Origin: Pseudoalteromonas xiamenensis
GTDB taxonomy: Bacteria; Pseudomonadota; Gammaproteobacteria; Enterobacterales; Alteromonadaceae
Assembly: GCF_030994125.1 (NCBI RefSeq)
Contig: NZ_CP099917.1
Coordinates: forward strand, 806,001-870,000
Reading direction: 5' to 3'
Length of the DNA: 64,000 bases
Every line of letters begins with the position of its first letter. The stretch's first letter is position 1. The notes under the pieces were generated by a model that was not told the DNA's origin, made no database searches, and was given only the letters and a program-made list of their open reading frames with translations. Position numbers and translations under genes: made by a program. Positions 51,623-64,000 of the stretch are shown here, in pieces.

Positions 51623-53656
51623 CTACAAAGGGATCGATAGAAGCTCAGAACTATCTCCCGAATCACTACGCAAAACCACTTTCATTTCTTTTTTCAAAAC
51701 ACTGAATTTCGGTTTTACCAATTGGTAGCTGAATTGAGTTTTCGTCAGCTCTGGTTGTTCAACATTCGACAGATCAAGTTGAAAAAAGGACACGTCAACT
51801 AAATCGTGTTCTGACCAAATAACACTATTTCCAATGACATCCCAAAACGTGTTTCCAGAAAGTATTGCAACTCTATTTAGGTTTTCGAGGTTGTTATCAG
51901 CTAAATTAAGAAGGTACATTTCTCCGCTTTCTTTTACAACGACCAACCTATTCCCCATTGTTCGAACATACTTGAAATTATCTAATAGCTTGATATTTTC
52001 GCCGCTTCCCACTTTATGGCGTACTAACTCCCAGTTATTTTCGCCTTTCGTGGTGAAGTAAACGTATTCACCATTATTGGACAAAGTTGCATCACCAACA
52101 TATATGTCACTCGAAGTAATACGCTCAATACTTGAGTTTTCGTAATCTAAATATACAAGTTGGTTGCCTTCTAAAAATAGAAAAATGGGCTCAGCTCCAC
52201 TTCCCATTAAGCCTGTCAATTGCGAATCGGATGCATAGAGTGGCTTCGAATGATTTCCTTGCAAATCAACTTTATTAATTTCGTTCACATTATCCCGTTC
52301 GATAATCACAATACGCGCATCGTCTGCGTTTGAATCAAACATTTGTATTGTGTCGTCTTCAAGTTTCAGAATCCGTGTAGTTTCGAAATTAGATACTGGC
52401 AATTCACGCTCGTAATAGAGCGCTTCGGATTTTTTTCTTCCAATTGCGATAACTGAATTGTTTAACTGATCATAGGTAAAGATGCCTAATTTTTCGTCCG
52501 CGACAACAAGCTCAGAGCTTGCGTTTATTAAGTGGAGTTTATGCAGACCTAAACTGGAGGAATAGATAATCTCGTTCTCATTTACCCATTGCACGTCAAA
52601 TACAGCGTCGTCTAATACTTTCCCGAATACTCTCTTATTATTTCTTCTATCAAGAACTCGGATATCATATCGATTCTGAAAACTATCAAAACGAACAACA
52701 GCAATTTTTTCAGCACTTGGCGACACAGCTACTTGTAAGTCGTTTAGCTCTTTATTAGGGCTGAAGGTAACCGGACTTACTTCTTTTGTCGTGGTATCGT
52801 ATCGATTTAACACGATTGGTTCAGATGGGAACTTAGTGCCTGTAAAATACAACGCATTATCCTTTTCCACATTAACGAGGTCGCTAATCAAGTAGTAATC
52901 CCGCAATAGAACGTCGACTTTCTGGTCTTCGATTGAAACAGAATTGAGTGAACTATTCCCTTCTATTAGATCGATAAAATACAGTTTTTTTTCGTCATTC
53001 GAAAACGACAGACTGATTGGAAAGTGAGCGTCACTTGAAATTGGTACAGTGTTTATACCGTCACTAGCATAAAATATCTGATACCCATCTTTTTGAGACA
53101 GACTACCTGCATAAGCAAGTTTCCCCGTGCGACTTTTGGCGATTGCTACTTTGTCGCCAGGTAATGATTGGATAATCTGAATATCTTCTGGTTTTTCAAC
53201 AAATATTAGTACGCTAACCGTCCCCAAAAATAGAATTATGGCGATTGCACAAGCGACTATGACTTTAGCGTGTATGTAAGATACTTTAGATAATCTCTGT
53301 TTCGCAGTTTCATGTGTATGTTCATTTAAAGCCTCAATGTGTACCGGTATTTCTTCGTCCACGAAATTTACATGACAAACAAGCTTGTATCCGCGCTTGG
53401 GTGTTGATCGAATAAACCTAGGTTCTTTAGGGTTGTCACTTAATACTTGCCTTAACTTACTAATACAACGTCTAACTGCTGCGTCACATACAAGAGTTCC
53501 ATTCCATAGATTGTCATGTAGTTCACTCACAGAAACATATCTATCTTTGTTGTCAAACAAGTATAAAAGTACAGCAAACACTTTTGGTTCTAGACCGACA
53601 TTTTGCTCATTTACTACTATGTGCATTTCTTCCTTGCACACAAAAATAGTTTCCAT
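51623..53656 (-). CDS. membrane-bound ToxR/CadC-type transcriptional regulator with beta-propeller sensor
   Basis: 677 residues. An OmpR/PhoB-type winged helix-turn-helix lies at about 5-95 (EPKVFAVLLYLFDN, VCDAAVRRCISKLRQVL, FIRSTPKRGYKLV); a transmembrane helix at about 130-153; then a large periplasmic part (about 160-677) of repeated beta-strand units like the TolB/WD40 propeller (DKVAIAKSRTGKLAYAGSLS, SFSNDEKKLYFIDLIEG, LSNNGEYVYFTTKGENNWEL). This is the CadC design, in which a periplasmic signal acts on DNA through the membrane. GAGAGGG precedes the ATG. It is divergent from the RiPP-like locus, with inverted motif copies between them, so it is the probable cluster regulator; the signal is unknown. 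Confidence 0.85.
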   Translation of the reverse strand: METIFVCKEEMHIVVNEQNVGLEPKVFAVLLYLFDNKDRYVSVSELHDNLWNGTLVCDAAVRRCISKLRQVLSDNPKEPRFIRSTPKRGYKLVCHVNFVDEEIPVHIEALNEHTHETAKQRLSKVSYIHAKVIVACAIAIILFLGTVSVLIFVEKPEDIQIIQSLPGDKVAIAKSRTGKLAYAGSLSQKDGYQIFYASDGINTVPISSDAHFPISLSFSNDEKKLYFIDLIEGNSSLNSVSIEDQKVDVLLRDYYLISDLVNVEKDNALYFTGTKFPSEPIVLNRYDTTTKEVSPVTFSPNKELNDLQVAVSPSAEKIAVVRFDSFQNRYDIRVLDRRNNKRVFGKVLDDAVFDVQWVNENEIIYSSSLGLHKLHLINASSELVVADEKLGIFTYDQLNNSVIAIGRKKSEALYYERELPVSNFETTRILKLEDDTIQMFDSNADDARIVIIERDNVNEINKVDLQGNHSKPLYASDSQLTGLMGSGAEPIFLFLEGNQLVYLDYENSSIERITSSDIYVGDATLSNNGEYVYFTTKGENNWELVRHKVGSGENIKLLDNFKYVRTMGNRLVVVKESGEMYLLNLADNNLENLNRVAILSGNTFWDVIGNSVIWSEHDLVDVSFFQLDLSNVEQPELTKTQFSYQLVKPKFSVLKKEMKVVLRSDSGDSSELLSIPL

Positions 53657-53733
53657 ATTGCCCTCTCACGACCTGATTTATTGCCAAAAAAAACACTAAT
53701 TCTATAAAAAACAGATACGTACATTTTGGTTAC

Positions 53734-53771
53734 GCAAATTTTACAATTTGCTTATTCCATGCAGATTGTAA
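53734..53771. promoter_or_regulatory. three copies of a GCAAATTGTA-like motif between regulator and peptide locus
   Basis: GCAAATTTTA (53734-53743, plus), GCAAATTGTA (minus strand, 53742-53751) and GCAGATTGTAA (53761-53771, plus). The first two form an 18-base palindrome, GCAAATT-TTAC-AATTTGC. Position in the divergent promoter region fits an operator for the neighbouring regulator. Confidence 0.5.
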
Positions 53772-53781
53772 GGTTTTTATA

Positions 53782-53809
53782 TTGACTAGTGCAAGCAAGT
53801 AAATACTGA
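53782..53809 (+). promoter_or_regulatory. candidate promoter of the peptide locus
   Basis: TTGACT (53782-53787) and TACTGA (53804-53809), 16 bases apart, 30 bases before the first peptide gene. The -35 is good, the -10 poor, as expected for an activator-dependent promoter just downstream of the triple motif. Confidence 0.4.
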
Positions 53810-53838
53810 TTTTTAAGAAAAATGTTGGAGTTTGAGAA

Positions 53839-54036
53839 ATGAAAAAATTGGACGTTCTAAAGAACAAACTCAGCAAAAATGAGATTCAACTCCCAAACTC
53901 ACAGCCTGGGCAATTAACAAATATAACAAAACACTTACATTCATGTGATTCCTGTAATAACCAAGGCGGATGTGACCAGAAAAGTGAAACTTCCGCCGAA
54001 AACATGGCTTTAGTGTCTCCATTGCGAATTCTGTAG
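53839..54036 (+). CDS. Cys-rich small peptide, putative RiPP precursor (type 1)
   Basis: 65 residues from ATG 53839 with GGAG upstream. It begins MKKLDVLKNKLSKNEIQL, a charged helical stretch like the leaders of the five peptides that follow, then a Cys cluster HSCDSCNNQGGCDQK (CxxCxxxxxC). There is no signal peptide. The rest (SETSAENMALVSPLRIL) differs from the other peptides. As first gene of the locus it may be a second class of substrate for the radical SAM enzymes or a regulatory peptide. A hairpin begins inside its stop codon. Confidence 0.6.
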   Translation: MKKLDVLKNKLSKNEIQLPNSQPGQLTNITKHLHSCDSCNNQGGCDQKSETSAENMALVSPLRIL

Positions 54037-54062
54037 ATGCGGCCGTTCACCCCCGCTTCTAC
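54033..54062 (+). terminator. hairpin between the first peptide gene and the tandem precursors
   Basis: GTAGATGCGG (54033-54042) pairs with CCGCTTCTAC (54053-54062), one mismatch in ten, loop of ten bases. It overlaps the stop codon of the first peptide gene. No T tract, so an mRNA processing or stabilising element is as likely as an attenuator. Confidence 0.45.
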
Positions 54063-54101
54063 GGTCTTAACATTAGGGTGAGCACATTTAAGGAAAAAAT
54101 T

Positions 54102-54242
54102 ATGAAAAACATGAATAACTTAAAAAATCTAGTAAAGAAAAACAACGTTAAAGCTTCAGATAATGTACTGCAAATTATGCGTACTCAGGGCTGTTCAAGC
54201 TGCTGCAGTATGATGGATGGCGGTAACGTCAAACAACAGTAA
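54102..54242 (+). CDS. RiPP precursor-like peptide, tandem copy 1
   Basis: 46 residues, ATG 54102 behind AAGGAAAAAA. Leader MKNMNNLKNLVKKNNVKASD, then NVLQIMRTQ and the Cys motif GCSSCCSMMDGGNVKQQ with Cys31, Cys34 and Cys35. There is no signal peptide, so export would depend on the downstream ABC systems. The motif, the leader-like helix and the radical SAM neighbours make it a likely modified-peptide precursor. It is the most divergent of the five copies at the N-terminus. Confidence 0.8.
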   Translation: MKNMNNLKNLVKKNNVKASDNVLQIMRTQGCSSCCSMMDGGNVKQQ

Positions 54243-54254
54243 CAAGGATTTGCG

Positions 54255-54395
54255 ATGAAACTTGAAACCCTAAAAGCACAAGTAAAGGCACAAAATATGA
54301 AGTCTTCAGACCGTGCTTTGGAAATCATGCGCACTCAAGGCTGCTCAAGTTGTTGCAGCATGGGTGACGGCGGTAACTCTAAAGAAATGAAGTGA
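54255..54395 (+). CDS. RiPP precursor-like peptide, tandem copy 2
   Basis: 46 residues, 12 bases after copy 1, with AAGGATT upstream of the ATG. Leader MKLETLKAQVKAQNMKSSD, then RALEIMRTQ and the core GCSSCCSMGDGGNSKEMK (Cys30, Cys33, Cys34). It shares the RTQ junction with copy 1, whereas copies 3-5 have RVQ, so copies 1 and 2 form one sub-group. Confidence 0.8.
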   Translation: MKLETLKAQVKAQNMKSSDRALEIMRTQGCSSCCSMGDGGNSKEMK

Positions 54396-54402
54396 GAACT
54401 AC

Positions 54403-54543
54403 ATGAACATTGAAAAACTAAAAGAACTTTCTAAAGCCAAAAACCTGTCTGCATCAAAACAAGTGTTAGACATCATGCGTGTACAGGGTTGTTCAAGCTG
54501 CTGCAGCTTGAGTAGCGGTGGCAACGCCAAAGAAATGAAGTAA
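54403..54543 (+). CDS. RiPP precursor-like peptide, tandem copy 3
   Basis: 46 residues, only seven bases after copy 2. Leader MNIEKLKELSKAKNLSASK, then QVLDIMRVQ and GCSSCCSLSSGGNAKEMK (Cys30, Cys33, Cys34). Its C-terminus KEMK equals that of copy 2, its leader that of copies 4 and 5, so it looks like an intermediate or recombinant copy. Confidence 0.8.
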   Translation: MNIEKLKELSKAKNLSASKQVLDIMRVQGCSSCCSLSSGGNAKEMK

Positions 54544-54624
54544 TCCACACGGTAGGTATTCAGTCCTTTTGGCATAGGTAGTTTGCACACCGATGCAATC
54601 ACGAAACATAAAGAGATAAACAAA

Positions 54625-54762
54625 ATGAATATTGAAAAACTTAAAAAGTTATCACAAACCAAGAACATGGCAGCGTCAAAGCAAGTTCTTGAAATTATGC
54701 GAGTTCAAGGCTGCTCTAGCTGTTGTAGTTTGAGCAGCGGTGGAAACGCGAAAGCGCAATAA
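54625..54762 (+). CDS. RiPP precursor-like peptide, tandem copy 4
   Basis: 45 residues after an 81-base gap. Leader MNIEKLKKLSQTKNMAASK, then QVLEIMRVQ and GCSSCCSLSSGGNAKAQ (Cys30, Cys33, Cys34). Nearly identical to copy 5 through the leader, a sign of recent duplication. Confidence 0.8.
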   Translation: MNIEKLKKLSQTKNMAASKQVLEIMRVQGCSSCCSLSSGGNAKAQ

Positions 54763-54789
54763 GATTTGGGCTAACTAAATCGACTTGAA

Positions 54790-54844
54790 AAAGTCACTTG
54801 ACCCGGAATGTTGATATTGCAAAAGGATTTGCTTCAGTGACTTT
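54790..54844 (+). repeat. inverted repeat between precursor copies 4 and 5
   Basis: AAAGTCACT (54790-54798) and AGTGACTTT (54836-54844) are perfect complements 37 bases apart. It may form an mRNA hairpin in the 112-base spacer. Confidence 0.4.
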
Positions 54845-54874
54845 GTAATATTTGAACAACAAGAGAGTAATGCG

Positions 54875-55015
54875 ATGAATATCGAGAAGCTAAAAAAACT
54901 ATCACAAGCAAAAAATATGGCAGCATCTAAGCAAGTACTTGAAATCATGCGAGTACAAGGGTGCTCAAGCTGCTGCAGCTTAAGTGATGGTGGAAATCCA
55001 AAGCAGCAGCGTTAA
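54875..55015 (+). CDS. RiPP precursor-like peptide, tandem copy 5
   Basis: 46 residues. Leader MNIEKLKKLSQAKNMAASK, then QVLEIMRVQ and GCSSCCSLSDGGNPKQQR (Cys30, Cys33, Cys34). Across all five copies the invariant parts are the IMR-x-QGCSSCCS block, GGN and a basic residue shortly after; the residues between CCS and GGN vary (MMD, MGD, LSS, LSS, LSD). The GG lies after the cysteines, so a double-glycine leader cut would discard them and is unlikely. Confidence 0.8.
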   Translation: MNIEKLKKLSQAKNMAASKQVLEIMRVQGCSSCCSLSDGGNPKQQR

Positions 55016-55035
55016 TTGCTACTTAAATCTTCATC

Positions 55036-55060
55036 GATCTACCGGCTATGTCGGTAGATC
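55036..55060 (+). terminator. hairpin between the precursors and the first radical SAM gene
   Basis: GATCTACCG (55036-55044) and CGGTAGATC (55052-55060), a perfect 9-bp stem with a 7-base loop. No T tract, so partial termination or 3'-end stabilisation of an abundant precursor mRNA is likely. Confidence 0.5.
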
Positions 55061-55105
55061 TCTTCGCGACGTGTTAAACATTAATAACTATAAAAAGGTG
55101 TACTC

Positions 55106-56506
55106 ATGGTACAGGCGCTAAAGAAAGACATTCTGCTTTCTTCCCAAGAAGAAGAAGGAATTGTTTACCTTGAAAGACAACTTCCAGACAGTTCAAAAGT
55201 TCAAATAAAAATTCATCCGTTGCAAGCTTTTATCATGACACTTTTTGATGGTACACGAGAGACTGATGAAGCAATTCATGTACTCTCTGAAGTCATGGAA
55301 TTAGGGTTGGAAGAAGCCAAAGATATCGTCAATAAAGTATTAGATAGATACAGCCTTTTTTTCAGTGAATTAGAGAAAACGTCAATAGCTTATACTTCTC
55401 ATAATCCAGGTGACTTTATTTTTAAAGGTGATGACTCCATCATTTTAAGTAGTCGAGAAGATGCTCCTAGTGCCATGATTTGGGTCGTGACCGAAGATTG
55501 CAACCGCAAATGTAAGTATTGCTATAAAGATGCAAAATACATTGAAAACGGCTTCGCTACTGACATTAAATTTCCATATAGTCGCGTTGTAAAAGTAATA
55601 GATGAAGCAGCTCTGATAGGTGTCAATCGTCTGATATTTACAGGTGGAGAACCACTGCTCAGGCCTGACCTTCCCGAAATTATTACACATACCATTGAAC
55701 AGAACATCGTTCCTGTCGTTATTACCAAATATCGTATAGAAGGCGAGTTGATGGAACGCCTGTCCGCAAGTGGCCTTGAAGATATACACATCAGTCTCGA
55801 TTCGATTGATCCCGAAGACGTACTTGAATTAGTAGGCGTAGAAAATGCACTTGAAGATATGTTGGTGTCAATTCGCGAATGCGTGAAACATGGAATAAAA
55901 GTAATTCTCCGTCCAGTGATGACCGCTATCAATGTTGAAAAACTAGAAAAAACAATTGATACAACTTACCAAATGGGTGTACGTCACTTCATCATTGACG
56001 TCTACGGACAAACTTGTGGCCGTCACGAGCCAAAATTTTTACTAACGAAAGAACACGAAATTAAACTCATGTCTGATGTAGAAATTTTACGTAAACGCTA
56101 TCCCCGCGCCATTTTCTCTTTCAATTTCGAGCAAAAAACAGACAAAGGGACTAAAGGCTGTATGGAGGGTCTGAGGGGGATTACCGTTCAACCAGACGGA
56201 ACGGCTGTCAAATGTGAGCACATTGCACCTGGCCCACACAACACATTTGGAAATCTGAACGAGAGTGGATTGTTGGACATTTGGATTTCTGAAAAAACCA
56301 AAGAAATCGTTATTCCAAGTCGTAAATTCTTCAAAGGTACAGCATGCTACAAATGCGATTTGTTTAGAGATTGTAATTACGTTCGTGGACGTTGCACTGT
56401 TTCAGCTAAAAGTAAATTCGGCACAATCCACGCGCCTGATGTGTATTGTCCAATAGGTGAATTTAAACGTTCGAATCATATCGATGTAAAAATCGTTTCA
56501 GCATAA
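55106..56506 (+). CDS. radical SAM/SPASM peptide-modifying enzyme 1 with PqqD-like domain
   Basis: 466 residues. The N-terminal 90 residues (VQIKIHPLQAFIMTLFDGTR) look like a PqqD-type RiPP recognition element that binds leader peptides. The radical SAM domain has Cys132, Cys136 and Cys139 (CNRKCKYC) for the 4Fe-4S cluster and FTGGEPLLR (178-186) for S-adenosylmethionine binding. The SPASM domain has Cys352, Cys370, Cys414, Cys417, Cys423, Cys430 and Cys448, a seven-cysteine set for auxiliary clusters. Enzymes of this layout make thioether or carbon-carbon cross-links in peptides (AlbA, PqqE, QhpD). Its place after the GCSSCC peptides makes them the expected substrates; the bond made is unknown. 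Confidence 0.9.
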   Translation: MVQALKKDILLSSQEEEGIVYLERQLPDSSKVQIKIHPLQAFIMTLFDGTRETDEAIHVLSEVMELGLEEAKDIVNKVLDRYSLFFSELEKTSIAYTSHNPGDFIFKGDDSIILSSREDAPSAMIWVVTEDCNRKCKYCYKDAKYIENGFATDIKFPYSRVVKVIDEAALIGVNRLIFTGGEPLLRPDLPEIITHTIEQNIVPVVITKYRIEGELMERLSASGLEDIHISLDSIDPEDVLELVGVENALEDMLVSIRECVKHGIKVILRPVMTAINVEKLEKTIDTTYQMGVRHFIIDVYGQTCGRHEPKFLLTKEHEIKLMSDVEILRKRYPRAIFSFNFEQKTDKGTKGCMEGLRGITVQPDGTAVKCEHIAPGPHNTFGNLNESGLLDIWISEKTKEIVIPSRKFFKGTACYKCDLFRDCNYVRGRCTVSAKSKFGTIHAPDVYCPIGEFKRSNHIDVKIVSA

Positions 56507-56516
56507 GGAGAACGTG

Positions 56517-57929
56517 ATGAAATATTTTGGCAAGCTTGCACATGTAGAACATAAGAATGGGCAATATTACTTACAGTACTTACCAACGATTCAAGGTGAA
56601 GTTGGACCTCGACTTCCTCTCCATCCTCTAGTCGTTTTCATACTAATTAAATTAGATGAACAGAAAACCGTCGCCGAGGTCGTATCAGAGCTCACGCAAT
56701 CATTTGATATTAGCAGCAATGACGCACAAGAAATCACTGACGATGTCGATGTCGTCTTTGAACGACATTTTTCAGAGCAAACACCTGATCCAGAACGTTT
56801 AAATGTCGATAAGCCAATGTTGATGTCAATGATTAATGAACTGAGAACACTCGGGGAATTTAAGACTCGGAACACTGTTTTCATAGGAAATCGCTCCCCG
56901 TTCCCGCTTACGTTACAGTGGCTGGTTACTGATTATTGTAATCGTAAGTGCGTTTACTGCTATCAAGGTGCACCACTAAGCAGTAAGGCCAGTGATTCGA
57001 TAGTTGACGAAAACGTCATCAAACGACTTATCCGAGAAGCCGCTCAGCTCGGTACAAAAGAAATTTTCTTAACAGGTGGAGAACCTCTGTTGCGAGAGGG
57101 TATTTACGACATCATCGTTTATGCTTTAGAGCAAGGTCTTACGCCGGATTTCGTTACTAAGCAATTCATCAATGAACACGATGCACAAAAAATGGCTAAA
57201 GCCGGCCTCAAAGATGCCTATCTTAGCATTGATAGCCTTGAAAAAGATTCGGCATCGGAACTTACCGGCATTGGTGGATTTGCTCGCAAAATATCTCAAT
57301 CGGTTCAAAATTTAGTCTCTGCAGGTATTCGTGTGCACGCAAAATCCTTGCTGACTTCGATAAACGCACATGCCTACAAAGAAACGCTAGAGCTTCTAGA
57401 AAGTCTGGGGGCTTCATCAATCACAATTGATACCTATTCGGACAATCTTCAAAGGCACGATGACAAACTAAGAGCATCAACTGATCAATTACAGGTAGTT
57501 CAATCAATCGTTGATGACTTCAAAGCAAGCAATCCAGATCTTACTGTTTATTATCGCTCAGATTTCAGTGTAAACGACCTAAATTACGATATTGATGGCT
57601 TTATCTGCCACAACGGCCGAACGCAATTATTGTTTTATCCAAATGGAGACATTTCTAAATGCGATAAAAAGTTGCCGGGTGGCGACATGATTGTGGGTAG
57701 TGTTTTAAATCAAAGTGTATTCGACGCATGGTACAGCGACAGCTTACTCGAATCTCTCGATCCACCTCGAGAAAAATACAAAGGTACGCCATGTTTCAGT
57801 TGTGATTACTTTGACACCTGTAACATTCGAGGACGTTGTTATTACGGAGCATATATGTCAACCGGAACACTTTATGGTCCACAAGAAGGTGCATGTAAAT
57901 TTATGGTAGGAGTTAAAAGTGTTTGCTAA
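56517..57929 (+). CDS. radical SAM/SPASM peptide-modifying enzyme 2 with PqqD-like domain
   Basis: 470 residues from ATG 56517, preceded by AAGGAG; a GTG three bases earlier is the alternative. The layout repeats enzyme 1: PqqD-like region to about 95 (LPLHPLVVFILIKLDEQ), cluster cysteines in CNRKCVYC (Cys141, Cys145, Cys148), FLTGGEPLLREG, and a C-terminal SPASM set with FICHNGRT, SKCDKK, CFSCDYFDTC, GRCYYG and EGACKF. It is a paralogue of enzyme 1 with clearly different sequence, so it probably makes another modification or acts on another site. Eleven bases of overlap link it with the next gene. Confidence 0.9.
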   Translation: MKYFGKLAHVEHKNGQYYLQYLPTIQGEVGPRLPLHPLVVFILIKLDEQKTVAEVVSELTQSFDISSNDAQEITDDVDVVFERHFSEQTPDPERLNVDKPMLMSMINELRTLGEFKTRNTVFIGNRSPFPLTLQWLVTDYCNRKCVYCYQGAPLSSKASDSIVDENVIKRLIREAAQLGTKEIFLTGGEPLLREGIYDIIVYALEQGLTPDFVTKQFINEHDAQKMAKAGLKDAYLSIDSLEKDSASELTGIGGFARKISQSVQNLVSAGIRVHAKSLLTSINAHAYKETLELLESLGASSITIDTYSDNLQRHDDKLRASTDQLQVVQSIVDDFKASNPDLTVYYRSDFSVNDLNYDIDGFICHNGRTQLLFYPNGDISKCDKKLPGGDMIVGSVLNQSVFDAWYSDSLLESLDPPREKYKGTPCFSCDYFDTCNIRGRCYYGAYMSTGTLYGPQEGACKFMVGVKSVC

Positions 57930-59310
57930 TTGTTATCCAAAATTAAAACCAAAATCGAGACTAACAAAAGAAACAAACCGTGTTGTATTGTACGAGGTAG
58001 ACCGTGGAGAGAAATTTTTATCTCTTCACCCTATTCATGCATTAGCACTTACACTTTGTGATGGAAGTTCGAGTTTCGAAGCTATTTCGACAGGATTATC
58101 TGAAGTTTTTGATTATTCTCCCTTACAAGCTAAGGAATTAGTCAGTGATTTATTGAAGCAAGCTTATGAGTTTATCGATCTAGGATCTGAGCCGTATTCT
58201 GAATTAAACGACCGCTACGATCCGTCAGAATTTGTTTATGAGCCTACAGAAGCAAAATGGACGAATAAACTAGAAGTACCTAATACTGTCGTCTGGATGA
58301 CGACAAATCGGTGTCCTGCAGATTGTGTATATTGCGTGATACCAACACTCAAAGCCAATGAGTTTGCCCCGAATGAACTTAACACCGAACAAGCGTTTCA
58401 CTTCCTAAAAGAATGTGTTGACCTTGGTGTAAAATATATCAACTTACACGGTGGTGATCCATTTCTCAGAAAAGACATGGTCGAAATTATCGAGTATTTA
58501 CTTTCAAATGATATTTTCGTCGATGTTTCAACGAAGATGCCACTGCGGGAATCGCTCATTGAGCGCCTAGCTAAAGCTGGATTAGATACCTTACAAGTTA
58601 GTGTAGACAGTAATTTGCCTAAGCTTGCTGACGAGATCGTGCGTGTTAAAAACTGGCTACCTAAAATCAATCAAACCATCGATCTTTGTCAAAAATACAA
58701 TTTAAAGGTTCGAGCGAATATCGTAGTCACAACAAAAAATATTAACGGCATTCCTTCGCTGCTGAATTATCTGATTAATCGGAAAAACATAAAAGATATT
58801 GGTATGTCGGCCTATTTACGCTCCGAGCATAAGCATGATGACTCATTGCTTATTACTCAAGAACAGCGTGAACGACTAATTCAACAAGTTAATGAAATAT
58901 CAGCTCAATATCCTGATGTCAAAATAGGTAATATTTCAGCAATCAGCGAACGTGATATCTCGCTTTCTATTCCTGGGTTTGGATCCTGTTCCGGAGGTAA
59001 AACTGCATTGGTTGTTGGCTCAGATGGTGAATGTGCAACCTGCGACAGAACCATGCCTTATTCGGAAGCCCGCATCGGAAATGTGAAAGAGTCATCGATA
59101 GCCGATATTTGGAACGGCAACGCTCTTGAATATTTACTCGACCCGCCGATGGAAGCTTACAAAGGAACATCTTGCTATGAATGTGACCACTTTCAGCAAT
59201 GCAATGTAAGACAACGATGCTTCTATCGCGCAAGGTTAATTAATGGAAAACTGTTTGCACCTGATTACCTTTGCGCAAAATTACCTGAGCCACCTATCGA
59301 AATGTTTTGA
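57919..59310 (+). CDS. radical SAM/SPASM peptide-modifying enzyme 3 with PqqD-like domain
   Basis: 463 residues from GTG 57919 behind TAGGAG, overlapping enzyme 2 by 11 bases. PqqD-like region to about 90 (LSLHPIHALALTLCDGSS). The cluster motif is CPADCVYC (Cys132, Cys136, Cys139). The usual GGEP is GGDP here (NLHGGDPFLRKDM). SPASM cysteines lie in GSCSGGKT, CATCDRT, CYECDHFQQC, RQRCFYR and DYLCA. The N-terminal CYPKL adds an extra Cys. It is the most divergent of the three. All three together suggest stepwise tailoring of the precursor set. Confidence 0.9.
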   Translation: MFANCYPKLKPKSRLTKETNRVVLYEVDRGEKFLSLHPIHALALTLCDGSSSFEAISTGLSEVFDYSPLQAKELVSDLLKQAYEFIDLGSEPYSELNDRYDPSEFVYEPTEAKWTNKLEVPNTVVWMTTNRCPADCVYCVIPTLKANEFAPNELNTEQAFHFLKECVDLGVKYINLHGGDPFLRKDMVEIIEYLLSNDIFVDVSTKMPLRESLIERLAKAGLDTLQVSVDSNLPKLADEIVRVKNWLPKINQTIDLCQKYNLKVRANIVVTTKNINGIPSLLNYLINRKNIKDIGMSAYLRSEHKHDDSLLITQEQRERLIQQVNEISAQYPDVKIGNISAISERDISLSIPGFGSCSGGKTALVVGSDGECATCDRTMPYSEARIGNVKESSIADIWNGNALEYLLDPPMEAYKGTSCYECDHFQQCNVRQRCFYRARLINGKLFAPDYLCAKLPEPPIEMF

Positions 59311-59318
59311 GGTAAGTA

Positions 59319-60317
59319 ATGAATATAATTACAACAACCGCTATCTCTAAGTCATTTGCTAAACAAGTTGCAAAATCACCCAATGGCAGTTTTGCAACCA
59401 GATTCAAAGAGTTATTTTCATCCCCAACGATTAAGACTCGTGTTCTAAATAATATTGACTTGCAGGTTGAAGCGGGTGAATTTATTGGACTACTCGGCTC
59501 TAATGGGTCAGGTAAGTCCACACTTCTCAAGTTGCTGACGGGGATTTTAATCCCCGACAGTGGCTCTATTGAAATTTTGGGTTTAAACCCGGTCACTGAT
59601 CGCAAAAAGTATACCGCAAACATCGGTGTTGTATTTGGTCAAAAAAGTCTGCTCTGGTGGAATGTACCTATTATAGAATCATTTAAGTTGTACGCTTCTA
59701 TATATCGATTGAGTGCAAAAGAACGTGATTCCAGAATTGAGGAGCTTTCAGCTCTTCTTGGCTTGGGAGAGATATTATTTTCACCTCCAAGAAAATTGTC
59801 CTTAGGACAAAGAATGAAAGCTGAAATAGCGGCGTCTCTACTTCACAAACCTTCACTTATTTTTCTTGATGAGCCAACTATAGCCTTGGACCCAGTATCT
59901 CGTATTAACTTAATGAATTTTCTTTATGATCTAAACCAGAATGAGGGCACTACTATCCTATTCACTTCACATAACATGGCTGACGTTCACAATTATTGTA
60001 AACGTTGTGTCATTTTAAATGATGGTAGTGTTATTTATGATGGAAAAACTGAAGAACTCATTGCTTTCGAAAACTACAAGACATTGGAGCTGAAAACGGA
60101 ATCCGATTTCGATATAGCGCTTCTCAGTGATTTTGAATATGAGCAAATTGATTCAAATTGGTACAAGATAAAAGCCTCATACAACGATATACATAAAGCA
60201 TTTTCGTCGCTCGCATTCAATAAAGCGGTGACAGACCTAAATGTTTCCCCTCCAACACTAGATAGTGCGGTAAGTCATTTTATGAAAAAGTCAGAGGCCT
60301 ATAAAAATGCATCTTGA
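59319..60317 (+). CDS. ABC transporter ATP-binding protein (ABC-2 exporter)
   Basis: 332 residues. Nucleotide-binding domain with Walker A GSNGSGKST (about 64-72), signature LSLGQRMKAE, Walker B LIFLDEPT, and the switch His in FTSHNM. A C-terminal extension (about 230-332) follows, as in DrrA/NodI-type ATPases that work with ABC-2 permeases. The motif order fits an exporter. It starts eight bases after enzyme 3 and overlaps the first permease by 11 bases, so it belongs to the locus and would energise export of the modified peptide or self-immunity. Confidence 0.93.
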   Translation: MNIITTTAISKSFAKQVAKSPNGSFATRFKELFSSPTIKTRVLNNIDLQVEAGEFIGLLGSNGSGKSTLLKLLTGILIPDSGSIEILGLNPVTDRKKYTANIGVVFGQKSLLWWNVPIIESFKLYASIYRLSAKERDSRIEELSALLGLGEILFSPPRKLSLGQRMKAEIAASLLHKPSLIFLDEPTIALDPVSRINLMNFLYDLNQNEGTTILFTSHNMADVHNYCKRCVILNDGSVIYDGKTEELIAFENYKTLELKTESDFDIALLSDFEYEQIDSNWYKIKASYNDIHKAFSSLAFNKAVTDLNVSPPTLDSAVSHFMKKSEAYKNAS

Positions 60318-61095
60318 TACCTTTTACAGTTTTTTGAGACTGTCTTTTAAAGACCTATCCGTATTTCGCTCTGATTTTTTTATCAGCATTATCCACTTAA
60401 TAATATACCAAGGTATCTTCATTCTATTTTGGGATGCTTTACTTGGAAAGATAGGTGTCGACCTTGGTGCTTGGGATCAAGGTTCTTTATCACTTCTTGT
60501 TTTGACAGGATTAATATTTTCTTCTATTCGATTACTCTTTTACGGCTTCACTACAATGAGCGAAAAAGTAGTGACTGGCACGATCGACAAGTACCTGTGT
60601 AGACCTATTTCGCCTATTTGGGCATTGCTGGCTGAGGATACAAAAATTTGGGCTTCGTTTCATTCTTTATTTACATGTTTACTGTTGTTCATTGCCTTAG
60701 ACTTAAACTACCACTTTGTATTCTCTGTAAAAAACGCCTTTTACTTTATGTTTTCTGTCGTCCTTGGTAGTTTAACACTTGTGCTATTTGAAGGAGTTGT
60801 ATCGCTATCCTCATTTTGGTTTGGAAGAACTGATAAAATATTTTATCTGGTCAATAGTTTTGCTGACTTCCAACGATACCCTATATCTCTATTCCCATCT
60901 TTTATTCAACATTTGCTGATGTGGGTTATTCCTATTGCATTAGTTTCATCTATCCCAGTGATGTTTCTATTTGGTAAATTTGAATCGCCTGAAATCTTAT
61001 TATTAGCTCAAACCATTCTAATGCTAACTTGGTTTTTTCTGTTCATATACCTCTGGAAGAAAGCATTAAAAAATTACGACTCAGTTGGAGGTTGA
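60307..61095 (+). CDS. ABC-2 type permease 1
   Basis: 262 residues with six predicted transmembrane helices. The segments VTGTIDKYLCRPISPIWALL and the C-terminal WKKALKNYDSVGG are typical of the ABC-2 family permeases (DUF990-like) that come in pairs with a DrrA-type ATPase. It probably dimerises with the next permease. Overlaps the ATPase gene by 11 bases and ends three bases before the second permease. Confidence 0.85.
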   Translation: MHLDTFYSFLRLSFKDLSVFRSDFFISIIHLIIYQGIFILFWDALLGKIGVDLGAWDQGSLSLLVLTGLIFSSIRLLFYGFTTMSEKVVTGTIDKYLCRPISPIWALLAEDTKIWASFHSLFTCLLLFIALDLNYHFVFSVKNAFYFMFSVVLGSLTLVLFEGVVSLSSFWFGRTDKIFYLVNSFADFQRYPISLFPSFIQHLLMWVIPIALVSSIPVMFLFGKFESPEILLLAQTILMLTWFFLFIYLWKKALKNYDSVGG

Positions 61096-61098
61096 AAA

Positions 61099-61880
61099 AT
61101 GAGCACTCTACAAATAATGAAGCTAGAGTTAAAGGACAATACGCACTTCAAAGTAAATATGTATGCCTGGTTGTTGTCACACCCATTACAACTGACAATT
61201 ATCTATTTTCTATGGGCAGGAATTTATCAGTATACTAACAGTATTTCAGGTGTTAGCTTTAACGAAATAATAACATATTATTTTATTGTTCACTTTATTA
61301 GTTCAACACTTTCTTCTGCTTACTCTGTTAATTTCTATGTATGGACTGACGTGAATGAAGGCGGTATTGACAAATTTTTATGTCGCCCTATCGACTACAT
61401 AAATACAATCTTAGCAAAAAGTTTTGTAAAACCTGGTATCGACGCCATCTTTGCAATTCCGGCTCTTATTGCAGTAGTATTTATAAGCAACAATGATATA
61501 TCACTTACGCAGCTTTCCTTTTTTCTTTTTCGCTATTTCTAGCGCTGTGTATTTTGGTAGAAATTCAAAAGTGCATAGGCTTATTATCTCTTTGGTTTGA
61601 AAAGGTATTTGGAATTAGAGATATTATTTTCAGCCTTATGACCCTTCTTTCTGGGCAGCTAATTCCATTATCTTTTTTACCAGAGAAAATATCATCTATC
61701 GCACTTTACACGCCATTCGCATCGATTTTTAACGCACCAACATCTCAACTAGTTAATTTCAACCATCAATCAAGCATTGACATGATCTATTTACAAATAT
61801 TCTGGTTGCTATTATTTTACATTACCGCTCGAACATTATGGAAACTAGGCAGACCACGATATGCATCTTTAGGCGGATAG
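61099..61880 (+). pseudogene. ABC-2 type permease 2, apparent frameshift in a T tract
   Basis: The frame from ATG 61099 (MSTLQIMKLELKDN) runs to TAG 61540-61542 (147 codons), giving the N-terminal half of a permease with GGIDKFLCRPIDYINTILAK. The remaining half continues one base out of frame (LFLALCILVEIQKCIGLLSL to TLWKLGRPRYASLGG) and ends at 61880. The two halves join if one T is added in the TTTTTTCTTTTTC tract around 61519-61531. The C-terminal SLGG motif matches permease 1. So the gene is either broken, mis-sequenced at a homopolymer, or expressed through slippage. If truly broken, the exporter would lack its second permease. Confidence 0.75.
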
Positions 61881-61897
61881 AAGAAAGAGTCATCGCT

Positions 61898-61927
61898 TTG
61901 ACTAATTAAAATTGAAAGTGCATTAAT
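61898..61927 (+). promoter_or_regulatory. candidate promoter before the second exporter
   Basis: TTGACT (61898-61903) and ATTAAT (61922-61927), 18 bases apart, in the 80-base gap before the MacB-type ATPase gene. Weak but well spaced. Confidence 0.3.
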
Positions 61928-61962
61928 AAAAATAAAGATTATCGTCAACAAGGATTTTAAAC

Positions 61963-62655
61963 ATGCTTAAAGCAGAAAATTTATCAAAAATTTACCGAAC
62001 AGACACTGTACTAACAACCGTCTTTGACAACCTTTCTTTCGAAGTTGAGACCGGCGAGTTTGTTGCCATTACAGGACCTTCCGGAGCAGGTAAAACAACG
62101 CTTTTAAACACATTAGGTTTACTTGAAAATTTTCAAAAAGGAAATTTGTACATCAACGATCAAAACGTTGCTTCATTGAGCGACAAAGCACTTTCAACCT
62201 TACGCAACACCCATATTGGATTCGTATTCCAGAATTTTAATTTACTTCCTGAGCTGTCCGTATTAGATAATGTCTCGCTCCCACTAGAAATCGCAGGCAT
62301 CGCTAAAGCTAAAGCTAATCAAGAAGCCAAACAACAACTTGAGTATATGGGCTTGCTTGGTCGCTGTCATCACAAGCCAAACCAACTTTCTGGAGGACAA
62401 CAGCAACGTGTCGCGATTGCTAGAGCGCTTGTCAGTGCTCCTCAACTAATTCTTGCCGATGAACCCACTGGTAATCTTAATTCTGCAATGGCACAAGAAA
62501 TCATGCTGTTATTAAAAAGAATTAATGACGAAGGGACTACAATTATTATGGTAACTCATGACGATGTGTTAGCTAAAATGGCGAGTCGAACGATTGAATT
62601 AATGGATGGAAAAATATTGAACGCAAACGAAAAAGGGTTTGTCGAATGCGCTTAA
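61963..62655 (+). CDS. ABC transporter ATP-binding protein (MacB/LolD type)
   Basis: 230 residues. Walker A GPSGAGKTT (about 39-47), Q-loop FVFQNFNLLPELSV, signature LSGGQQQRVAIARAL, Walker B LILADEPTGNL, switch His in MVTHD. This is the pattern of ATPases that drive MacB/LolD/FtsX-like mechanotransmission exporters of peptides, antibiotics or lipoproteins. AAGGATT precedes the ATG. It overlaps the next gene, an FtsX-like permease, by ten bases. As a second export system in the locus it may serve immunity. Confidence 0.93.
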   Translation: MLKAENLSKIYRTDTVLTTVFDNLSFEVETGEFVAITGPSGAGKTTLLNTLGLLENFQKGNLYINDQNVASLSDKALSTLRNTHIGFVFQNFNLLPELSVLDNVSLPLEIAGIAKAKANQEAKQQLEYMGLLGRCHHKPNQLSGGQQQRVAIARALVSAPQLILADEPTGNLNSAMAQEIMLLLKRINDEGTTIIMVTHDDVLAKMASRTIELMDGKILNANEKGFVECA

Positions 62656-63935
62656 GATCAATACTACAAGGAATTTTAACGCAACGATTAGTCGCATTAT
62701 TAGTAACTGCGCTTATCGCGCTCGCACTGGGTGCGTTTGGTACCACTCTCTCTGTATTTCAAATTATGTCCAGTAACCCAATGACTCCAGTTAACTCAAC
62801 GACAGCCTATGTCGTTATTGATGACTGGGATCCGTTGAATGAACTCGATTGGACTCCTCCGCTATTGAGTTACAACGATGGTTTGCAACTATTCGAATTG
62901 GCCTCTGAAAGTAAAAGAGTTTTGACTTACGATTCCAAAGCGGTTCTCCACATACCCAATTCTAATCGCCTTTTTGATTACTCAGGTCGGGTAACAACAC
63001 CTGACTTTTTCTCAACGTTTGGAGCCAAGTTTCAATATGGTGACTCGTGGAACTTACAGGAAGATTTATCTAGAGACCGTTTGATTGTACTTTCAGACGA
63101 TGTAAACAAAGAGATTTTTGGTGGGAGCAATAGCGTAGGAAAAACGCTGTTAGTCGAAGGTGAAAACTTTACCGTGTCAGGTGTATTAGCGCCTTTTGAA
63201 ATGACACCTAAAGTATATGACTTACATGTCAACCCATTTGGCAAACCAGAAGGGTTTTACATTCCCTTCAATACGGGTATTGAGATTCAACTTTTACCTC
63301 AAGGCCGTCTCTTAGGGTGGCGCAATGAAGAAATCCAAAATCTTGAGGATGTACTAAAAACGTCAATGATTTGGCTCCAATTATGGTTACAATTTGACGA
63401 CCCTAACGACATCGCTGTTTATCAATCAAAGGTACTATCCTTTGTCGAAATTCTCCGACAAACAGGCCGAGTTCAGCGTCATGGAGAAAGAGTCTTCCTT
63501 TATTCCCCTTCACAATGGCTCCAAATTAATCATGTCGTTAAAAATGACAGCAAATTACTGCTTTTAATGGCCATTGTGTTTCTCATTATTTGTTTGCTCT
63601 GTGTCGTCGGATTAATGTTAGCAAACTACGCTTCTAGGAAAAAAGAGTTTGCTATTTATCGCGCATTAGGAGCTTCGAGAAATTATCTAATTAAACGCCT
63701 TTCTTTTGAAGTTATGTTGCTCACGACCATGGGATGTTTTATGGGCGTGTTACTCATATTTTTAGGGCTCAACGGTATACAACAACTGTATGGAGAAAGT
63801 TACCGTGCTGTCACTTCAGTTGATGTAACGAATTTACTAATTGCGATTGCCATTATCTATGTGTCAACACTTTCAGTTTGTGCGTTCCCTATTACCAAAC
63901 ACAGCTCATCGCTTCCAGCTTCGCTTCTTAAGTAA
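62646..63935 (+). CDS. FtsX/MacB-like ABC permease
   Basis: 429 residues. One N-terminal transmembrane helix (about 12-38) precedes a large periplasmic domain (about 40-310; VIDDWDPLNELDW, TFGAKFQYGDSW, IVLSDDVNKEIFGGSNSVGK, a MacB_PCD-like region), then three transmembrane helices (about 320-425) with the FtsX-type ASRKKEFAIYRALGASRNYL. It pairs with the preceding ATPase. The C-terminus is short, as in permeases of the MacB group that form heterodimers, and a second permease seems to begin right after it. Confidence 0.88.
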   Translation: MRLRSILQGILTQRLVALLVTALIALALGAFGTTLSVFQIMSSNPMTPVNSTTAYVVIDDWDPLNELDWTPPLLSYNDGLQLFELASESKRVLTYDSKAVLHIPNSNRLFDYSGRVTTPDFFSTFGAKFQYGDSWNLQEDLSRDRLIVLSDDVNKEIFGGSNSVGKTLLVEGENFTVSGVLAPFEMTPKVYDLHVNPFGKPEGFYIPFNTGIEIQLLPQGRLLGWRNEEIQNLEDVLKTSMIWLQLWLQFDDPNDIAVYQSKVLSFVEILRQTGRVQRHGERVFLYSPSQWLQINHVVKNDSKLLLLMAIVFLIICLLCVVGLMLANYASRKKEFAIYRALGASRNYLIKRLSFEVMLLTTMGCFMGVLLIFLGLNGIQQLYGESYRAVTSVDVTNLLIAIAIIYVSTLSVCAFPITKHSSSLPASLLK

Positions 63936-63948
63936 AGGCCTATTGACA

Positions 63949-64000
63949 TGTATTTATCGACAACAGCTAAATTTATAAGTCATCGTAAGCTCGCCTATTT
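63949..64000 (+). CDS. start of a further gene, probably a second FtsX-like permease (cut by window end)
   Basis: Only the first 17 codons are in the window: MYLSTTAKFISHRKLAY and continuing. It begins 13 bases after the permease stop in the same direction. Similar exporters often have two permeases in tandem, and the basic N-terminal stretch suits the lead-in to a first transmembrane helix. The product cannot be identified from this alone. Confidence 0.4.

Follow-up and report, generated by a model that had tools for sequence, protein, structure and literature searches.

A Pseudoalteromonas locus with tandem GCSSCC peptides and three radical SAM/SPASM enzymes, probably for a modified ribosomal peptide

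Introduction

Why would a bacterium retain three radical S-adenosylmethionine (SAM) enzymes side by side for two types of small peptide? The question is posed by a locus at the right-hand end of a 64,000-nucleotide stretch of Pseudoalteromonas xiamenensis DNA (contig NZ_CP099917.1, positions 806,001 to 870,000). This whole stretch is called the window below, and coordinates refer to its positions 1–64,000 throughout. From position 53839 onwards, a Cys-rich peptide (pepX), five tandem peptides that share a GCSSCC motif (A1 to A5), three radical SAM/SPASM enzymes (rSAM1 to rSAM3) and two ATP-binding cassette (ABC) exporters are all encoded on the forward strand.

A preliminary description, made from the DNA letters alone, had recognized this one-strand array and read it as a candidate biosynthetic locus for a ribosomally synthesized and post-translationally modified peptide (RiPP). 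Open reading frame (ORF) calls and family scans bear out the array. The RiPP reading is supported by the conservation of peptides together with enzymes, by the fold of a RiPP recognition element (RRE) on rSAM1, by the presence of peptide maturases among its nearest structures and by purifying selection. With a probability of about two in three, the locus serves the biosynthesis and export of a ribosomally made, radical-SAM-modified peptide, best read as a new family that probably carries Cys thioethers and has two types of precursor and three maturase enzymes.

Results

Conservation of peptides and enzymes

A search for related loci found four, all in Pseudoalteromonas: P. amylolytica JW1 (L006), Pseudoalteromonas sp. 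T1lg23B (L007), P. byunsanensis JCM 12483 (L008) and P. peptidolytica DSM 14001 (L009). The regulator, the precursors (queries A1 and A5), the three enzymes and the exporter proteins were matched in each of them. Short precursor genes stand beside radical SAM/SPASM enzymes and are conserved together with them in all five loci, with two copies of the GCSSCC peptide per relative locus and five in the window. The locus is not a product of chance, for its genes and its peptides are shared by four further genomes of Pseudoalteromonas. Among 108 genomes of the genus, the precursors are present in five, namely that of the window and those of the four related loci. Weak precursor matches in four more (G337, G338, G339 and G243; E 2.3e-5 to 6.4e-4) were dropped, as the stretch matched in each is interrupted by one or more stop codons. 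By inspection, three of these four dropped loci have an open frame of more than 1,000 residues that reads like a polyketide synthase or nonribosomal peptide synthetase protein.

Precursor peptides

The five tandem peptides are 46, 46, 46, 45 and 46 residues long and all contain the QGCSSCCS block that had been described as invariant among them. They consist of a common leader followed by the core GCSSCCSxxxGGN. In an alignment of these five with the eight peptides of the relatives, 18 columns are invariant. The part common to all 13 peptides is GCSSCCS, the preceding Gln being replaced by Glu in six of the relatives' eight. Columns of the core have a mean entropy of 0.30 bits, compared to 1.08 for the leader and 1.44 for the tail. 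An antibiotic peptide engaged in an arms race is expected to vary in its core more than in its leader. The core being here less variable than the leader suggests a fixed target or partner, a metal or a signal, unlike a diversifying antibiotic.

Of the codon differences between A4 and A5, compared over 44 codons, 22 are synonymous and 4 non-synonymous. The non-synonymous rate (dN) is lower than the synonymous rate (dS) in every peptide pair for which dS could be estimated, the remaining pairs being saturated in dS. The same holds among the pepX counterparts of P. amylolytica, T1lg23B and P. byunsanensis. Selection on the precursor peptides is purifying.

The Cys-rich peptide of 65 residues reported upstream of the tandem array is present, with cysteines at positions 36, 39 and 45. 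When the window's pepX was used as a tblastn query, none of the four positional counterparts was matched. Their link to pepX is made by position, length and Cys spacing, as all four relatives encode a peptide of 54–57 residues with a CxxCx4-5C pattern at the same place. The N-terminus of pepX weakly resembles the GCSSCC leaders. From these sequence features, pepX is probably a second precursor type, which the preliminary description had not proposed.

The 90-nucleotide gap between the precursor and enzyme genes folds with −18.4 kcal/mol (z −2.08), an energy that 9 of 200 shuffled sequences also reached. In P. peptidolytica, a 13-pair hairpin was found in the same gap, within the 150 nucleotides after the precursors (L009 3274–3423; z −2.55; 1 of 200 shuffles as low), its sequence being different by eye. 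For the 150 nucleotides after the precursors of P. amylolytica, the folding energy does not stand out from expectation (z −0.94). The hairpin between precursors and enzymes may protect or separate the precursor message, and may keep precursor mRNA in excess.

Three radical SAM/SPASM enzymes

Each of the three enzymes had been credited with an N-terminal PqqD-like domain. The enzymes themselves were confirmed: the radical SAM domain (PF04055) scores above the Pfam cut-off in all three, and the SPASM domain (PF13186) does so in rSAM1 and rSAM3 and lies exactly at the cut-off in rSAM2 (21.5 vs 21.5). All three contain one CX3CX2C motif for the AdoMet cluster and seven cysteines in the SPASM region. 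The PqqD-like domain holds by structure for rSAM1 and at sub-threshold level only for rSAM2 and rSAM3, where the Pfam match reaches 18.1 and 15.6 bits for a cut-off of 23.4; rSAM1 has no such Pfam match.

Structure comparison shows that the N-terminal domain of rSAM1 has a fold similar to those of PqqD and of the leader-binding domain of lasso-B1 proteins, which are RREs, with a best Foldseek E-value of only 2.3e-3. The N-termini of rSAM2 and rSAM3 align weakly with this domain, at 15–23% identity. The structural model thus supports an RRE-type leader-binding domain on rSAM1, and an RRE function is presumed for rSAM2 and rSAM3. The nearest structures to the whole rSAM1 fold include SkfB (over rSAM1 residues 35–423), SuiB (over model residues 2–411), PqqE and CteB. 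This fold does not separate sactipeptide links, ranthipeptide links and C–C chemistry.

NCBIfam 20.0 and Pfam were scanned with the same 10 proteins (including three of the six peptides, pepX, A1 and A5), Pfam also with 8 other locus proteins, and PHROGs with 4 proteins, three of them peptides. For NCBIfam, the best 25 matching families were considered for each enzyme (of 76 for rSAM1, 86 for rSAM2 and 64 for rSAM3), and every maturase model among them scored far below its cut-off. With the StsB model (NF045574), which represents one sactipeptide subfamily, the scores were 53.5, 70.4 and 61.5 bits for rSAM1, rSAM2 and rSAM3 (cut-off 625). With the PapB model (NF047865), they were 43.2 for rSAM2 and 44.7 for rSAM3 (cut-off 340), the model not being among the best 25 of 76 for rSAM1. 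The rad_SAM_trio model (TIGR03913), for the maturase of GDL-motif peptides, gave 50 bits with rSAM1 and 70 with rSAM3 (cut-off 591.75), and was not among the best 25 of 86 for rSAM2.

Comparison with known systems and nature of the modification

SuiB and PqqE make C–C bonds. The systems to which they belong, streptide (SuiB) and pyrroloquinoline quinone (PqqE with PqqD), resemble the window locus in combining an RRE with a radical SAM/SPASM enzyme, and PqqD matches the N-terminal domain of rSAM1, but the GCSSCC core contains no Trp or Tyr. Among sactipeptides (sporulation killing factor with SkfB, streptosactin with StsB), SkfB matches the rSAM1 structure, whereas the window enzymes remain far below the StsB cut-off and the scanned peptides match no named family. 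Darobactin is a radical SAM RiPP of Gram-negative bacteria, and its family has a Trp-based core. The likeness lies in the MacB/LolD-type exporter ATPase, for which the best model is the darobactin exporter DarD. The differences are that this ATPase scores below the DarD cut-off (259.9 vs 375 bits), that there are three maturases, and that Trp is absent from all 13 GCSSCC peptides.

Ranthipeptides (freyrasin with PapB, thermocellin with CteB) share with the window locus a Cys-rich core and a radical SAM/SPASM maturase (PMC11002830). CteB is a structural match to both the whole of rSAM1 and its RRE, but the window enzymes score far below the cut-off of the PapB model. Thuricin CD, a two-component sactibiotic (TrnA/TrnB, TrnC/TrnD), resembles the window locus in that precursors of two types and multiple radical SAM maturases stand in one locus. 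Its two enzymes act jointly on both precursors, and how they divide labour is shown in PMC12093266. Thuricin CD is a Bacillus system with two maturases, and its peptides have three nested thioethers in a hairpin; the Pseudoalteromonas locus has three maturases and a multi-copy, nearly invariant CxxCC core.

In the core of the GCSSCC peptides, Trp and Tyr are absent from all 13 and Phe occurs in five. As the core is rich in Cys and free of Trp and Tyr, thioethers between Cys and carbon are the likeliest product. The most serious rival is a radical SAM RiPP without thioether, in which the enzymes would form C–C or C–O linkages, epimerize residues or introduce some other change, the cysteines remaining free to bind metal in a metallophore or redox peptide. 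The presence of SuiB and PqqE beside SkfB and CteB among the nearest folds of rSAM1 would fit such chemistry, and a nearly unvarying core fits a metal-binding peptide better than an arms-race peptide. Cysteines of the CxxC type are a metal-binding pattern, which also counts in its favour. A copper-binding RiPP cluster is reported in marine Microbulbifer (PMC12538549). Against this rival stand the aromatic composition of the core just given and the scans by NCBIfam and Pfam, in which no gene for metal uptake or a metal receptor was recognized among the scanned locus genes. A peptide without thioether is considered unlikely, while retaining some weight.

It is very improbable that the short peptides serve as small helpers that bind a metal or a cluster, with the enzymes acting on another substrate: pepX and the precursors are indeed small with three cysteines each, and pepX weakly matches an anti-sigma factor model of NCBIfam (14.5 bits for a cut-off of 62.5), but two to five tandem copies with a leader-core layout accompany radical SAM/SPASM enzymes and exporters in all five loci, and rSAM1 has an RRE fold. 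It is hardly to be expected either that the locus belongs simply to a known family of sactipeptides, ranthipeptides or darobactin-like peptides for which the models give poor scores, for although the RRE-radical SAM-SPASM architecture and Cys-rich cores are common to such classes and DarD is the best exporter model, the scores obtained with the StsB, PapB and DarD models are all below cut-off and Trp is missing from the GCSSCC peptides.

Match to named classes

Radical SAM RiPPs with an RRE are a well-known kind of system. The preliminary description could not match the motif to a named RiPP class, and this stands as far as NCBIfam 20.0, Pfam, PHROGs and the literature were searched. With pepX, A1 and A5, none of the NCBIfam or Pfam families scored above its cut-off, and PHROGs gave none for the three locus peptides scanned. 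A text search of 5.39 million papers, outside which most subscription-journal papers lie, found neither a match to the GCSSCC motif nor a paper with "three radical SAM" together with "RiPP". The combination of a multi-copy precursor with invariant CxxCC, a second precursor type and three RRE-radical SAM-SPASM enzymes is not met in the searched sources.

Wider kin of peptides and enzymes

The precursor profile search, which requires shared five-residue words, so that remoter precursors could escape it, returned eight proteins at E ≤ 10. These were three of the window's own, four from Pseudoalteromonas (P0007–P0010), and P0011, which is identical to A1 from an inner Met. Alternative starts of A1 are possible, with GTG at 54078 or ATG at 54111.

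For rSAM1, 14 relatives with 36–41% identity (P0015–P0028; E ≤ 1.5e-87) are set apart from all further matches, which resume at E 1.9e-42. Among the 14, two bear the name Thermoanaerobaculia or Acidobacteriota and the rest have no taxon. For rSAM3, there are three relatives at 39–41% (P0113–P0115) and a fourth at 32%, all of them without a taxon. The distant relatives of both enzymes come mostly from metagenomes. A tree was built with 21 proteins, in which rSAM1 is accompanied by six of its 14 relatives and rSAM3 by its closest three, and which also includes three remoter proteins. Each of the Pseudoalteromonas enzymes forms a separate group (support 100/100, 100/100 and 100/99); rSAM1 is joined by its six relatives (100/99) and rSAM3 by its three (99/100). 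Unless the root lies inside one of the groups, this grouping of the distant relatives suggests that rSAM1 and rSAM3 diverged before the Pseudoalteromonas versions split from them. Since rSAM1 and rSAM3 each have a clade of distant relatives, the three-enzyme set may, judging from the sequences, reach beyond Pseudoalteromonas.

With the rSAM1 profile at E ≤ 1e-60, only the window's genome was found among 398 genomes of the phylum and among 394 of the order. With rSAM1 alone at E ≤ 1e-70, two of 295 genomes of the family were found, the second being P. amylolytica. This suggests that the locus is rare, not absent, in the wider taxa, the genome samples having missed most known carriers. Eight plasmid records contain radical SAM proteins of 23–26% identity, and seven distant relatives occur on viral contigs, with 24–35% identity in the best segment.

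Regulator, exporters and limits of the locus

The features of the locus are collected in Table 1. The preliminary description placed its limits at 53734 and 64000. The unit proved to be larger, as the divergent regulator on one side and a second FtsX-type permease on the other belong to it. The regulator has an N-terminal winged helix of the OmpR/ToxR type (PF00486) and, by inspection, a probable membrane-spanning segment followed by an extensive C-terminal region. It is matched in the same place and orientation in all four related loci, with 27–28% identity, and it is part of the unit. Across the four relatives, it is far less conserved than the enzymes (65–75%).

Both ABC export systems announced downstream of the enzymes were found by family scans, as an ABC-2 set and a MacB/FtsX set. 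ABC-2 permease 2 is one 260-residue frame in P. amylolytica and P. peptidolytica and is open in T1lg23B; in the window it is split by an apparent frameshift, which may stem from an error in sequencing or mean that one exporter has truly been lost. For FtsX/MacB-type permease 1, the best NCBIfam model is ADOP (duplicated permease), with 116.2 bits for a cut-off of 622.3. This model is presumably of acidobacterial origin; together with the two acidobacterial relatives of rSAM1, the ADOP-like score hints at an exchange with Acidobacteriota. No peptidase for leader removal was recognized by NCBIfam and Pfam among the scanned locus genes. A scan for promoters and terminators yielded 29 promoter-like sites (37.9 expected) and 18 terminator-like sites (9.5 expected) and was not used as evidence.

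Table 1. Features of the radical SAM peptide locus. Positions are those of the window.
Feature	Position	Strand	Basis
Divergent regulator, 677 aa	51623–53656	−	Pfam Trans_reg_C (PF00486), 54.1 bits
pepX, 65 aa, CxxCx5C, probable second precursor type	53839–54036	+	ORF
Precursor A1, 46 aa	54102–54242	+	ORF, alignment
Precursor A2, 46 aa	54255–54395	+	ORF, alignment
Precursor A3, 46 aa	54403–54543	+	ORF, alignment
Precursor A4, 45 aa	54625–54762	+	ORF, alignment, codon comparison with A5
Precursor A5, 46 aa	54875–55015	+	ORF, alignment, codon comparison with A4
RNA hairpin, 11 pairs, in precursor-enzyme gap	55036–55060	+	Folding compared with shuffles
rSAM1, 466 aa, RRE, radical SAM and SPASM	55106–56506	+	Pfam, structure comparison, motifs
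rSAM2, 471 aa, GTG start, PqqD-like region, radical SAM and SPASM	56514–57929	+	Pfam, alignment, motifs
rSAM3, 463 aa, GTG start, PqqD-like region, radical SAM and SPASM; overlaps rSAM2	57919–59310	+	Pfam, alignment, motifs
ABC-2 type exporter ATPase, 332 aa	59319–60317	+	PF00005; best NCBIfam model DrrA, 173.7 vs cut-off 312.45 bits
ABC-2 permease 1, 262 aa	60307–61095	+	PF06182, 97.4 bits
ABC-2 permease 2, two frames (61099–61542, 61554–61880)	61099–61880	+	Both pieces match PF06182
MacB/LolD-type exporter ATPase, 230 aa	61963–62655	+	Best NCBIfam model DarD
FtsX/MacB-type permease 1, 429 aa	62646–63935	+	PF12704, PF02687
FtsX/MacB-type permease 2, 394 aa	63948–65132 (past window end at 64000)	+	Downstream DNA read (L004:1449–2633)

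Genomic setting

Four neighbours of the locus were tested, two on the left and two on the right, and none is matched in any of the four related loci. The P. amylolytica locus lies between an rsmI-like gene, identified by reading of its ORF, and the RNase P RNA gene, and T1lg23B has the same left side. The window's right-hand gene, similar to that of elongation factor P, is found in P. amylolytica on another contig than the locus. A different insertion site is shown for P. amylolytica and T1lg23B only, the left flank in P. peptidolytica being a contig end. The G+C content is 38.6% in 51623–64000 compared to 44.2% in 1–51600. Given the differing neighbours, the insertion sites and the contrast in G+C, the locus seems to be mobile as a single block. 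In P. amylolytica, the RNase P RNA gene (rnpB, L006 19002–19362) is directly downstream of the locus.

Discussion

For the thioether chemistry, the division of labour among the enzymes, regulation and export, the following scheme is proposed. The five GCSSCC peptides would be substrates of the enzymes; the RRE domains of all three enzymes would recognize their leaders of about 28 residues, and probably that of pepX. The enzymes would remove hydrogen from the core and, most probably, link Cys thiols with carbon atoms of the backbone or the side chains, in sactionine- or ranthionine-like bonds. Two products would result, one with a compact CxxCC core that is tightly conserved and another with a CxxCx4-5C core. 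The two ABC exporters would move them out of the cell, protect it, or both, and the membrane-bound ToxR-type regulator would control expression.

A new RiPP class, with two precursor types, three old and non-interchangeable RRE-radical SAM-SPASM enzymes and a conserved two-component or metal-binding product, can be proposed only tentatively. With its short precursors, three maturases and RRE, the locus constitutes a compact and testable system, which bears on how pathways with several radical SAM enzymes divide labour.

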